Positions 22,223-29,226 of a stretch of 45,648 bases of DNA are shown here, in pieces (positions within the stretch are counted from its first letter, which is position 1; the number at the start of each line of letters is the position of its first letter). The notes beneath the pieces are model-generated. The model was not told the DNA's origin, did no database searches, and was given only the letters and a program-made list of their open reading frames with translations. The position numbers were made by a program, and so were the translations under genes. The stretch comes from a virus: positions 1-45,648 of IMG/VR virus record IMGVR_UViG_3300036790_000324; one strand, written 5' to 3'.

Positions 22223-25200
22223 TCCCGCCGGGGTTCGCAGTCGAATCGACGCCAACGCAGCCGGCCGCCGCCGCGATCCCGCCGGGGTACGAAGTCGAAT
22301 CGACACCGGACACAGCGCCAGGGCCAGGCCTGCGGCCCAACACCCCATCGGTGCTCGATCAAATCCGCCAACGCATTTTCGGCGGGCCGCAGGGCGAGAC
22401 CACGCTAGGGCGCGCTTTCCCCTCGATGAGCGGCGCGCGCATCGGCGATCAGCCGACGGCGACCTTACCCGTGGTGCGCCTCGAAGGGGCGGAGCCAGGC
22501 CCGAACGCCACGCCCGGCCAAATTCTGGCGCATAGCGCCAACCAGGCGCTCTCCGGTTTACTGACGCCCAAAAATCTGCTCATCATGGCCGCGACGGGCG
22601 GCCTCGGCGCAGTCGGAGAAGTGGCGCCCCTGCTCGGCCAGGCGATCAATACGGGCCTCTCGGCGTACTTCGCCGGTCAGAGTCTCAGCGGCGCGACGGA
22701 CGCAGCCAGGGCCGCTTACGCGGCACACCAGAAGGGCGACGATAACGAAGCACTGCGGCAGCTCGGCATGGGTGGGGTGCAAGCGATACTCGGCACGCTC
22801 GCCGGCCTACACGCGCGGACGAGTTTCAAGGGCCTCAATTCCGAAATCTCGGAGGCGATCGAGCGGCACAACGACACCGCCGCCGCGCAAGTCCTCGCCG
22901 AAGGGGCGCAGCACTATAACGAGCAGCCGCCGCCTGAACCTGCGGGCCTGCAACCAGCCGGGCCGCCGCAAGGAAAGCAGCCGGTTGTCTCGCGGCCGGT
23001 CGCACCGCCTCCCGTTCCCGAGCCTCCCGTTCCCGAGCCTCCCGCTCCCGCAGCTCCGGCGCCGGAAACTCCCGCCATCCCGAAAGGCTTCGAAGTCGAG
23101 AGCACGCCCGCGCCGACGCCGGCGGCCGCTCGAGAAGCGCCGCCCATTCCCGCCGGTTTCGCCGTCGAGAGCACGCCCGCGCGTTCCAATTTGGAACAGA
23201 GCTCCGAACCGGGAGCGCCCACGCGAACGCCGCTGCACGAAATGAGCCCGGACGAGCTCGACCAACTAATCCGGCAACGTACGACTGAGGAAAACAGTCT
23301 CCTTGCGGATCTATTCGGGGAACGGGGGGCCGAACGCTACAACCGACTGCAAAGGACGGCAAACGGGCATGATGTCGATCGCGCGGATGCCGCCTCCGCA
23401 GAGCTAGGCAGGATGGAAGCCACCCTCTCGCCGGAACAGACAAATCGGCTATTTGGAATCGACCAACCGGAAGAGCATAGCCTTGACGAAGCGAAAGCGA
23501 TGCGGCAAGCGCTCGGCCGGATCGGGGGCGACACCCCGGAAGAACTGGGCGATTCGCTGAAGTGGGCGCTCTCCCGCTTCGATCCAGAAAAGCCCGAAGC
23601 GAACCCGACTGCGTATGCGCAGCTCCGTTACGGAGCCCGACTCGCGCAAGAGCAGGGCTGGGACACCGCCGCTGTCAGCAAGGCGGCCGCGAAAGGGGCC
23701 GCATCGCGCTTCGCCGACCCGGCAGATGCAGCATTTATCCTCTCGAAGTTCGCAAAGCAGCAACAGCCTCGGCCGCAATCCATCGCATCATTGCCTGCTG
23801 AAGCGATGCCGGCCGCTCGAAATCCCGAACCGACAATTGAGGGGAATGTCGGAAGACCACCTGCTGAGCCGGATCGCGGCGCATTGGGAAAGCAGCTACC
23901 CGGACCTGGCGGCCCGGCTGAAACAAGCGGGACGCCTGGAAATGAAAGTGGAGTCGGCCGCGTTACGCGCGTCGAGACAACTGGAGCAGGGCCTAGCGGA
24001 GGGTCTGAGCTACCCGGAGGCGAATCGCCTGGCGATGGAAGACTGGCGCCGGCCGCCGCAACTGACGAATTAACCGCAGCGCCGACCGCACCGCCGCGCG
24101 GCATTTCCGAACTACCGACCGAGAACATTCACGCGGACCCGGTGCGCTTCCAGTTCAAAGCCGACACCGGCGGCAAAGCGGGCGTCGGCGAAGAGCTGAA
24201 GAATATTCGCGTCTTCGATCCCGACCTCGCGGGCGTGATCTCGGTATGGCACGATCCGGCGGACGGCAAAACGTACGTCGTCAACGGCCACCACCGCCTC
24301 GAACTCGCGAAACGCACCGGCGCTCCGACTGTTTGGGCGCGCTACGTCAATGCGGCGAACGCGCAGGAAGCCTATCGCGTCGGCGCGTTGATCAACATCG
24401 GTGAAGGGCGCGGGACGCCCATCGACGCGGCGAAGGTCTTTCGCGATTCCGGCCTCACGCCTGAAACGCTCGAAAAGCGCGGCGTGTCGATGCGTGGCTC
24501 GATGACGCGCTCGGGTATGGCGCTCGCGAATTTGTCGCCGGCGATTTTTGATCGCGTGGTACGCGGCGATTTACCCGTCGAGCGGGCGGCGGTCCTCGGC
24601 GAAGCGCTGCCCAACCACCAGGAACAGGCCGCCGCGCTCGCGCTGCTCGATAAAGCGGAGACGCGCGGCAAGCGTCCGACCAACAGCGAAGTACGCGAGC
24701 TGATCGACTTCGTAAAAAACGGGCCGGTCGAGCACGTCACCGAAAACCAGACGAATCTCTTCGGCGAGGAAGAGGTGCGCCAAAACGCGGCCTTCGAGAA
24801 AGCCGAAATTTCCGATTACATCCGCAGGCGCTTAGGCGAAGAGCGGCGGGTCTTTTCGAGCGCATCAACGCCACGCGCGGCTGAACAGCTCGGTTCGGTG
24901 GGCAACGTCATCAAGACCGAAGCAAACGCGCGTGTCGCGCAGGAAGCCGCGCAGGCGCAAGAAGTTTATGACAAACTCAAAACGAGCGCGGGGCCGGTCA
25001 ACGATGTGCTGGACGCTTCCGCGCGTCAGCTTGCACAGGGCGCGCCGGCGGCGCAGCTAAAAAACGATGCCTACGAAAGAATCCGACAAGTCCTCACAGA
25101 AACCATCGGCGGAAGCGGCCGAGCGGATAGCGGACGAGGCGGCGGAAGCGATCAAGGCAGACCGGCAAATGCGGGATTACCTGAAGGCCAAACGCCAGAA

Positions 25201-28200
25201 GGAAGCGCAGGAACCGGCAGAGCCTCCGGCGAAGATTTAGGGCCGGAGCCGGTCCGCGCCGAATCCTCGCGTGCGCCCGAGCTCTCCGGTAATCGCGACG
25301 AGCACTACCCGCGCAACGCACCCGATATCTATCACGCACGGCAGGCGCGTTTCGAAGCGATTCCACTCGATGAGGGTGATGCGGCGAACGCGCTCGCCTA
25401 CGTGGCGAACCGCAGCGGCATCGAATATCTGCACCGCAACACGCGCCTCGTGAACGACGACACCGTAATCGGGGGTGAGCACGTCGAACCGGCCCAGCTC
25501 GCCGCCCTTCTCAAGAATCTGAAGGCTGACGAGAAGAGCTTCGGCCGCGCTGCGCCGGCCGCCGTGCGCGAGCTTCAACGGATCGTCGAGCAGGCCGAGC
25601 AGGCGGGGAAATCGTTGATCGTCATCAAAGATGGCGCAGACACTTCGGCCGAAGAGCGCGCGCTCAGTTTGCAGGAAGAGCTGGACCACGCGCTACAGCG
25701 GGCGCGCACCGGCCGGCCACTCAGAGAGCATCTCGGAAGCGCCGCCGCGGGCTTCCTCGGATCACCGCTCGGCGCGCGCGCGAAGACCAGCCTCGAACGG
25801 CGGTACGGGTACGATTTTGCTTCCGCTGGTGAGGCTGCGGCCGAGATCGGCGTGCGCCTGCTGGCCGAGAACCGGTACCGGGAACTAGGACTATCGCTCT
25901 CCGAGGCCCGTACGCTCGCGGCCGAATACGTGCAATCTTTGAAGGAGGAGTATGGCTATGCCGACACGAAACCAATCGCGCGCCGCATCTTCGACGCACT
26001 CCGACCCGGAGCTCGAACGGGCGCAACGCTCGGTGGACCGGGCTCTGGCGAAGGGGAAAACGATCATCCCGACAGAGGTAACACCGGCGCCGAAGTTTTA
26101 CGTGAATCCGGGGACGGAGAAGGTGTCGAGAGCGAAAACGCGCGGCGGCCACCACCCGATAACGAACGCGAACCCTCTCTCTTCGACGCCGGCGAAAACG
26201 ACGAAGTAGCGTCGGACGCGGCGCGCGATCGCGACCAGCTCGAAGGCGAACGCCTCACCGCGCAGCTCAACGCGCCACTCACGCGCGACGAGCAGCGCAA
26301 AAAACTCAGGCGCTCGAAAGAGAACCCACAGGGCGGCCTGTTCGACACGAACGAGAAGCCACCGCAGGGCGATCTGTTCGGCTCGGGCCTCGGCGCGATG
26401 CAGCCGTACTTTGAGAAGTTCACAAAAGCCGACGTCATCCCAACGGCGAAGGAACTCGCACAGCTCATTCGGCACGCGGGCGACGATTTGAAGAAACTCT
26501 TCGCGCCGGCATCCCGCGTGGGAGCCGAAACCGCCGCGCTCAGCACGCGCTACCGGGCGGCCGAGCGGCAGCGGGCCGCCGACATCGCCCAGGCGACCCT
26601 CGCCGTTGCCAAGCGTTACTTCGATGCGCACTCGCAGGCCGAGAACTACGAATTTATCGACCGCATGGAAGCCGGCGAAAAACAGGCTGAGCCGTTGCTA
26701 CAACACTTCGCCGACCTCATCCGCTCCCTGCTCGATGAGCGGCGCGAAGCCGTGCGACAACTCGGCACCGGTAAACTCCAGAGTTTCATCGAGAACTACT
26801 TCCCGCACATCTGGAAGGATGTCCAGAAAGCGGCCGAGCTGTACCAGGACTACGGCAAGCGACCGCTCGAAGGCTCGAAGTCGTTCCTCAAAAAGCGGAG
26901 TATCGATTCGTTCATGATCGGCATCGACGCCGGCCTTGAACCGCTCTCCGATAACCCGGTCGAGCTGGTCATCGCGAAGCTGCTGCAGATGGACAAATAT
27001 CTGGCGGCGCATCGCATCCTCAAAGACCTGAAAGAGGCGAAGCAGCTCCGCTTCGTCGATGCGCGCGAGGGCCAGGCCCCGCCGGGCTGGCAGAAGATCG
27101 ATGATCCGGTCGCAACCGTCTACGGGCCGAGCATCCAGCACATCGCCGAATACCCGAATCGCGGCCTATGGGGCGGCCTTGACAAGGTGATCGACGCGCT
27201 CGACCTGAAGCACAAGCGCGGCTTCGATAACCTGCGCGGCGCAATCGGCCGCGCCCGTCAAGGCACCGGCGAAATTAAGACCATGCACGGCACGGCGGAA
27301 GACGTACTCGCGCACGAAATCGGCCATCAGATCGATTGGCTAGCGGGCTCGGGGAAACGCTTCGTAACCGAGTATCCGGACGCTCAGACGGTGGCACGGC
27401 TCAAGCGCGCGTACCACACGATCAAAAGTAAATCGTCCTCGCTCGAGGATCGCCGCGAAGCCCGCAAAGAATTGAAGACCTTGCAGGCGGCCATCCAGCA
27501 GCGCAAGAAATTCAAAGCCGAGCTGATGGCGCTCGCCGACCTGCGCGAAGGCCGCAAAGAGTACACCCACAAGCGCGAGGAAAAAATGGCGCAGCTCGCC
27601 GAAATGTGGGTCGGAGCGCGAGAACTCTTCAAGCGCACCGCGCCGATGGTTTTCGCCGAGTGGGAAAAGTTCCTCGACGACAATCCAAAGCTGCACGCGC
27701 TGCGCGACATCGAGGGCGATACCGAAGTCGAGCCGATCTCGCAACCCTACGACGTGGGCGGCCTGGTGATCAAGGGCCACTGGTGGGCGCCGGAGCCCGC
27801 CGCGCGGGTGCTGAATCACTACCTCTCGCCGGGCCTGCGCGAAAAATACGCGCTCTTCCGTGCCTACATGGGCGCGGCGAATCTGATGAACCAGGCGCAG
27901 CTCGGCTTCTCGGCCTTCCACTTGGGCTTTACGACCATCGATGTCGCGACCTCGAAGCTCGCGCTCGGTATTTACCAGCTCGCGCATGGCGACGTGAAAA
28001 AGGGCCTCTCCTCGATCGCGCAAACGCCGATAGCGCCGATTGCAAACATTCTGCGCGGCGACAAAATGCTTAAGGAATGGATGGCACCTGGGACGCAGGG
28101 CGAGCGGATCGGCGCGCTCATCGAGGCGACGGTGCGCGCCGGCGGCCGGGCGCAGATGGACGAGTTTTACCAGACCCACCTGGTCAAACGCATGATGGAA

Positions 28201-29130: not shown

Positions 29131-29226
29131 TTGGAGCAGGGCCTCGCGGACGGCCTGAATTACGAACAGGCGAACCGCCTGGCCACGGAGGATTGGCGCC
29201 GGCCGCCCAAAGTGAGCGGCATGTAG
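29131..29226 (+). pseudogene. Remnant of the nested-gene-1 family
   Basis: 31 codons from TTG 29131 (LEQGLADGLNYEQANRLATE, DWRRPPKVSGM, stop TAG). Homologous to the C-terminal half of the ORF at 23846-24073. It starts exactly at the end of the repeat leader. It may still be translated, since AAAGGA lies just upstream, but the N-terminal half is missing. Confidence 0.65.

Follow-up and report, generated by a model that had tools for sequence, protein, structure and literature searches.

Whether a small open reading frame (ORF) that lies wholly inside a very long phage gene is itself a gene is the question raised by the DNA analyzed here, the IMG/VR virus record IMGVR_UViG_3300036790_000324 (45,648 bases, referred to below as the window), which carries P22-like portal and coat genes. 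A giant gene of this record, read in frame 1, contains in frame 2 (+1) a small ORF, nested ORF 1 (n1), part of which recurs beyond the end of the giant gene (coordinates are collected in the table). We found distant homologues of nested ORF 1 embedded in the same +1 frame of giant genes in dozens of other phages. From these sequences we conclude, with good confidence, that nested ORF 1 is a real gene, which would specify a separate small four-helix protein starting at an internal ATG, was probably trapped by gene fusion, and may serve the giant protein as an accessory.

The preliminary description of this locus proposed that nested ORF 1 is a gene because its C-terminal 30 codons reappear outside the giant gene, and sequence comparison bears out this recurrence. 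Over the 26 codons from LEQ to RRPP, 13 codons differ and 8 of these are synonymous, exactly as had been counted. The excess of third-position changes is also confirmed: the nucleotide differences are distributed 3/3/10 over the nested codon positions (P = 0.016 for at least 10 of 16 at third positions). When an equal number of changes was placed at random 20,000 times, 8 or more synonymous codons were obtained with P = 0.002, and the conservation of the protein between the copies (21 of 26 residues identical) with P = 0.0003. The last four of the 30 codons are all non-synonymous, so that 8 of 17 are synonymous over the full 30, and the signal of constraint therefore ends at RRPP. Taken alone, this pair is a small sample and is suggestive.

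The closest relative of the window is contig 3300036780_000115 (L004/L009), which is about 90% identical across most of the giant gene. Its homologue of nested ORF 1 is 99% identical, with one base differing in 228 (N60H). The window and L004 show no changes at 63 sites where a substitution would alter the nested protein and leave the giant protein intact; the same class of site shows 0.13–0.55 changes per site in 12 control stretches of the giant gene, two of which overlap other nested ORFs. A profile of n1 identified one further member (E about 1e-9; 68 of 71 loci scanned) in contig 3300046703_000247 (L012), again in the +1 frame and within a giant ORF that spans 3470 codons or more. The window and L012 score 113 against each other in the nested frame and 25 in the giant frame. 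When the giant proteins were held fixed, the maximum reached in 2000 simulations was 67, below the observed nested score, whereas when the nested proteins were held fixed the similarity of the giant frame was unremarkable (P = 0.19). Searches of viral_contigs with n1, A1 or A2 returned only the known twin contig, and a search with the L012 member returned only itself.

The wider family was found through a tblastn match at E = 2, which was then checked for frame and position. Residues 1–72 of the window protein matched inside giant DarB-like genes of two Erwinia phages, Pavtok and PEp14; each matched region corresponds to a complete +1-frame ORF that has a Shine-Dalgarno sequence. Other records from the same search (E < 10) were set aside: MT835692, in which the match forms part of an ORF of 362 amino acids; MT838993, the second unannotated fecal record; and Bradyrhizobium phage OP596612, in which a 2079-bp tape-measure gene is annotated. 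With the Pavtok protein as query, 21 records were retrieved, nearly all under DarB-like, methylase, helicase, transglycosylase or PLxRFG annotations. Eleven isolate-phage records were inspected; in 10 of them (all but PBC5) the gene lies at +1 relative to a giant frame, and none of the 11 annotates a separate coding sequence (CDS) for it. In Itty13 (L092, NC_070969; locus 1857–5318, minus strand), antisense ORFs are annotated opposite a giant frame that stays open on the plus strand for at least 2098 codons and includes the nested gene; the annotation seems to have missed the giant.

A profile scan of IMG/VR identified relatives at 66 loci, 63 of which are nested in the +1 frame of a giant ORF by an automatic test (the giant lying at -1 relative to the nested gene). 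Two others, L128 and L145, lie at contig ends and are nested within such a giant ORF; in L120 the -1 frame spans the gene, yet the giant breaks 124 codons further on. The window member likewise lies in the +1 frame inside a giant, and a profile of n1, L004 and L012 aligned with that of nine isolate-phage members by hhalign over 72 columns (E = 7e-7, probability 91.9), indicating homology. The case for nested ORF 1 as a gene thus extends well beyond the single pair of copies, to distant homologues nested in the same frame. PHROG models matched 37 of 39 members, in the tabulated cases at the end of phrog_938, a model named endolysin that has 2185 positions and is similar in length to PBC5 gp22; it seems that this model carries a PBC5-type fusion at its end. 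NCBIfam and PADLOC each matched none of the 39.

We then compared selection in the two frames. The 71 available sequences were reduced to 53 non-redundant ones by a 95% identity cut; L120, L128, L145 and L136 were left out. The isolate loci LASTA (L091), VvAW1 (L094), PBC5 (L095) and POI1126 (L096) were not entered: LASTA and VvAW1 are represented by IMG/VR copies, PBC5 is frame-shifted, and POI1126 is represented only by a similar IMG/VR locus (L133). The BLOSUM score of the nested protein exceeded that of the giant-frame translation in all 1378 pairs, and its identity was higher in 1363 of them; these pairs are not independent, and the rates given below carry no correction for multiple hits. 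In the 21 closest pairs, differences fell 134/109/353 over the nested codon positions, and the rates of change were 0.041 at sites non-synonymous in both frames (dNN), 0.265 at sites non-synonymous in the giant frame only (dNS), and 0.048 at sites non-synonymous in the nested frame only (dSN). The nested frame is constrained in these pairs (dNN/dNS 0.16) and the giant frame is nearly free (ratio 0.86). The giant frame is nevertheless open across all 53 nested genes, and the third frame across none. These results demonstrate purifying selection in the nested frame, as expected of an embedded gene. A preference of homologues for synonymous change in this frame had been named beforehand as the test on which the proposal would stand or fall, and the family as a whole shows that preference.

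The relatives also carry signals for translation. Strict Shine-Dalgarno sequences, spaced 5–10 nucleotides from the start, precede 42 of 44 family starts but only 171 of 3195 (5%) control ATGs in the same frame of the same giants; the 44 are IMG/VR members, counted apart from the window, L012 and the isolate loci. These ribosome-binding sites argue for internal initiation. Of the 53 members, 13 have a stop in the nested frame no more than six codons ahead of the start, and ribosomal frameshifting from the giant is therefore unlikely. We also considered a translational coupler, in which a giant-frame start at the nested stop would release the C-terminal enzyme, and rejected it, because a Shine-Dalgarno sequence with a start was found there in only 1 of 53.

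AlphaFold2 predicts four helices for n1 (predicted local distance difference test [pLDDT] 90.9), and for one relative the same core with a fifth helix (pLDDT 78.5). Foldseek gave no match below E = 0.001; the best viral match (E = 0.011) has an accession that we assume to be of PBC5 type. The best solved neighbor of the n1 model is Porphyromonas PG0816 (PDB 2apl; Z 7.5, root-mean-square deviation 2.4 over 64 residues), which differs in that its Foldseek E value is 0.22 and its identity to the model 17%. A Z of 7.5 may reflect just a common arrangement, within reach of unrelated helical bundles. PG0816 is presumably a member of DUF1896; searches for DUF1896 and TnpV found no match in two genomes or in 14 controls, and these searches are uninformative.

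To place the family in its genomic setting, we examined what surrounds it. Of the 64 loci that extend far enough, 60 have the start of a DarB-type methylase-helicase part downstream of the nested gene; L118, L123 and L125 have another part there, and L120 is frame-broken. In the window, a ParB-like part (amino acids 623–945 of the giant, matching PHROG phrog_21/phrog_1033) occupies this position, and a profile of the methylase-helicase start found no match in the window or in L009. Such a start is not required for homology to the family. The host protein is a multidomain giant of 2294 amino acids, encoded downstream of the portal and coat genes and of a DNA-ejection match, and its C-terminal 611 amino acids used as a query were matched by 63 IMG/VR loci. 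From its position and domains, we infer that it is a polyvalent-type virion or ejection protein. It is akin to DarB in kind but is itself no DarB, because the methylase-helicase-start profile finds nothing in the window. Around window position 27299–27345 the giant holds a HEIGH motif (AHEIGHQ), which we take to be typical of zinc metallopeptidases.

Outside phages, we found members in 3 of 395 and 5 of 396 sampled bacterial genomes. Of the nine bacterial places, three are nested in ORFs of more than 1000 amino acids, three overlap with shorter ORFs, and the other three are free-standing (L170, L171 and L172). The copies L170 and L172 lie on two contigs of one Acidobacteriota-sample genome (G709), among similar small neighboring genes. 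A DarB-type methylase-helicase part is present in 1910 plasmid records, from which we inspected 10 stretches, hand-chosen to span phyla, with 35 annotated CDSs. The five best family-profile scores among the 35 proteins all fell on the gene immediately upstream of the helicase. On a Selenomonas plasmid, this neighbor of the DarB-type SNF2 gene is a true TnpV gene (67 bits). TnpV (Pfam PF14198) comprises small transposon-encoded proteins and weakly matches 5 of 11 members of the nested family, whose proteins are likewise small; the best match (1.8e-4, 21.9 bits) is under the 27-bit Pfam cut-off, and the window member gave no match to PF14198. The phage members differ from TnpV in being nested in a giant gene instead of free-standing. 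By tblastn, the Pavtok and L160 proteins found no plasmid relative. Two plasmid matches at E = 2 and 7 were left aside.

In the history that we consider most likely, the small gene began as a separate gene immediately upstream of a DarB-type N6-adenine methylase/SNF2 helicase gene, and the weakly similar small genes on some plasmids are a surviving form of this arrangement. Phages would have fused the enzyme with upstream domains into one giant virion protein, trapping the small gene; after the fusion the frame of the small gene would have been kept, and reading through it in the giant frame would have produced a flexible linker rich in Gly, Pro and Arg. Ribosomes would initiate at the internal ATG on the mRNA of the giant gene and make the separate small protein, whose most likely role is that of an accessory factor, supplied from the same mRNA, that holds or assembles the giant or its methylase-helicase part. 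In the window phage, the gene would have persisted despite the absence of the methylase-helicase part, whose place is taken by a ParB-like part. The more far-reaching proposition, that the family is a widespread one, hidden within the giant antirestriction proteins that phages eject, and consists of dedicated partners of DarB-type methylase-helicases, trapped by fusion of the neighboring genes and lying within a linker that is the younger, overprinted sequence, is put forward tentatively, with rather more doubt than confidence.

Several observations weigh against parts of this account. The candidate Shine-Dalgarno sequence of nested ORF 1 has its GAGG 3 nucleotides from the ATG, closer than the 5–10 in the relatives, although homology to the family does not depend on a well-spaced site. 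The direct signal from the window sequence itself is weaker: compared with the family (52 pairs), it is saturated, with differences of 2305/2098/2301 by position, dNN/dNS of 0.96 and no third-position excess; nested identity is above giant-frame identity in 50 of the 52. The low divergence between the window and L004 continues past the nested gene to about 24300, so a recombined tract or recent exchange could explain part of it. Of 76 sources (the window and loci with relatives of its giant), three have a detectable member: the window itself, its near twin L009, and L012; the distribution of the gene along this branch is therefore sporadic. In PBC5 the small protein shares its frame with the N-terminal half of the giant, so that the annotated gp22 ends in the small protein. 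The similarity of the plasmid neighbors is weak (hidden Markov model E values of 0.00025–0.08 over 35 proteins; hhalign 0.044 for a Burkholderia/Pseudomonas pair and 8e-5 for TnpV), and 5 of the 10 plasmids had nothing convincing. Finally, the family models tried point to no function for the nested protein.

Among the alternatives, the one that survives best is that the small protein is independent of the giant and represents self-standing cargo, for example a regulator or a counter-defense factor. The link to the methylase-helicase is not obligatory, because the window, L118, L123 and L125 carry another part after the nested gene. The methylase-helicase start that follows in 60 of 64 loci, the similar layout as separate genes on some plasmids, and the absence of PADLOC matches among the 39 members all speak against this reading, and we consider cargo unlikely, if a serious contender. 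A still less probable alternative is that the protein was born de novo by overprinting within an existing linker of the giant. Linkers are tolerant sites, every phage member found is nested, and the plasmid neighbors are just weakly similar, all of which would fit such an origin; the stand-alone bacterial members, the significant TnpV match of the Selenomonas neighbor together with the weak TnpV matches of 5 of 11 members, and the fact that the unconstrained frame is that of the giant favor an older, trapped gene.

That the small protein is instead an alternative C terminus of a truncated giant, reached by ribosomal frameshifting, seems to us very improbable. This idea draws on PBC5, in which the N-terminal half of the giant and the small protein share one frame, and on phrog_938, which ends with the small-protein domain. 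However, the stops close upstream of the start in 13 of 53 members and the Shine-Dalgarno frequency of 42 of 44 against a background of 5% argue for internal initiation. In PBC5 (L095, NC_003324; about 2955–3001), the giant switches frame near residue 986, shortly 5′ of the nested start, which is most simply explained as an isolated sequencing error or natural indel. The last possibility, a chance open frame whose apparent conservation would merely reflect selection acting on the giant, gains something from the window and L004, which cannot by themselves separate the frames because they differ by one base in 228, but it is refuted for the family by the nested scores in all 1378 pairs and the nearly neutral giant frame, by simulations with fixed giants that never reach the observed nested similarity, and by the Shine-Dalgarno enrichment at family starts, and for nested ORF 1 we regard it as extremely unlikely.

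Nested ORF 1 thus appears to be a working gene, and the copy beyond the giant is probably a non-expressed remnant that keeps a history of selection. The sole in-frame start of this copy is a TTG at its first position, 2 nucleotides past AGGA, which is not convincing; the copy is therefore not a second working gene in our reading. An exact 40-bp repeat flanks the region and corresponds to the leader of the next gene, its ribosome-binding site included. L004 lacks positions 29131 to about 29946, and the segment between the repeats (29091–30009) looks like an insertion by recombination. This segment, which is missing from L004, contains a minus-strand ORF of 166 amino acids (29396–29896).

Features of the window discussed in the text
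Feature	Position	Strand	Remark
Giant gene	22204..29088	+	Open frame, 2294 amino acids; hosts nested ORF 1
Candidate Shine-Dalgarno sequence (GAGGGG) of nested ORF 1	23839..23844	+	Read directly; identical in L004
Nested ORF 1	23846..24073	+	75 amino acids, +1 frame of giant; belongs to conserved nested family
ParB-like part of giant, downstream of nested ORF 1	24070..25038	+	In most relatives, DarB-type methylase-helicase start lies here
40-bp exact direct repeat, copy 1	29091..29130	+	Abuts truncated second copy
Truncated second copy, C-terminal third of nested ORF 1	29131..29226	+	Probable remnant
40-bp exact direct repeat, copy 2	29970..30009	+	Leader of next tail-region gene, which begins near 30000

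Two further ORFs are nested in the same +1 frame of the giant gene and were seen in L004/L009 only. One (25067–25240, plus strand, 57 amino acids) shows the pattern of two constrained frames against L004 (dNN 0.017, dNS 0.121, dSN 0.115), and no Shine-Dalgarno sequence was seen. The other (25952–26209, plus strand, 85 amino acids) lies directly past AAGGAGGAG; its codon evidence against L004 is equivocal (dNN 0.068, dNS 0.061).

Embedded phage genes and DarB-like giants are already known; what appears to be new is the nested gene described here. According to the relevant passages, DarB of phage P1 is a virion protein that protects phage DNA (PubMed Central [PMC] PMC5512222), and the structural proteins of JC1 include a DarB-like giant (PMC9144972). 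The host genes of the nested family are of the kind treated by Iyer et al. (2017, PMC5512222), with records annotated as DarB-like antirestriction and with the methylase-helicase dyad discussed in passages there. The passages of that paper on TnpV, overlap, nested or embedded genes and reading frames describe no gene hidden in another frame. Nor does the nested gene appear in the relevant passages of PMC9144972, PMC5512222, PMC6630229, PMC3558961, PMC10052179, PMC6606913 or PMC10782964; more broadly, it is undescribed in the open-licence PMC literature searched, a set to which the original Bcep22 paper (PMC3187461) does not belong. The embedded class of Rz/Rz1 spanins, as presented in PMC9144972, likewise has a complete small phage gene within another. 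There, Rz1 encodes a lysis lipoprotein and its host gene is small, whereas the family described here encodes a helical protein set in the linker of a gene that can reach about 15 kb, and it is the host frame that is relaxed.

A conserved gene within one of the largest genes of phages has thus escaped standard annotation, including in isolate phages of Erwinia, Klebsiella, Pseudomonas, Agrobacterium, Vibrio, Ochrobactrum and Microcystis. The translation and function of its product are predictions; the product is a candidate for a missing factor of the DarB-type antirestriction machinery. The family also suggests a route to overlapping genes in which two genes fuse across a third; if this is what happened, fusion across a gene could create overlapping genes in the opposite sense to classical overprinting.

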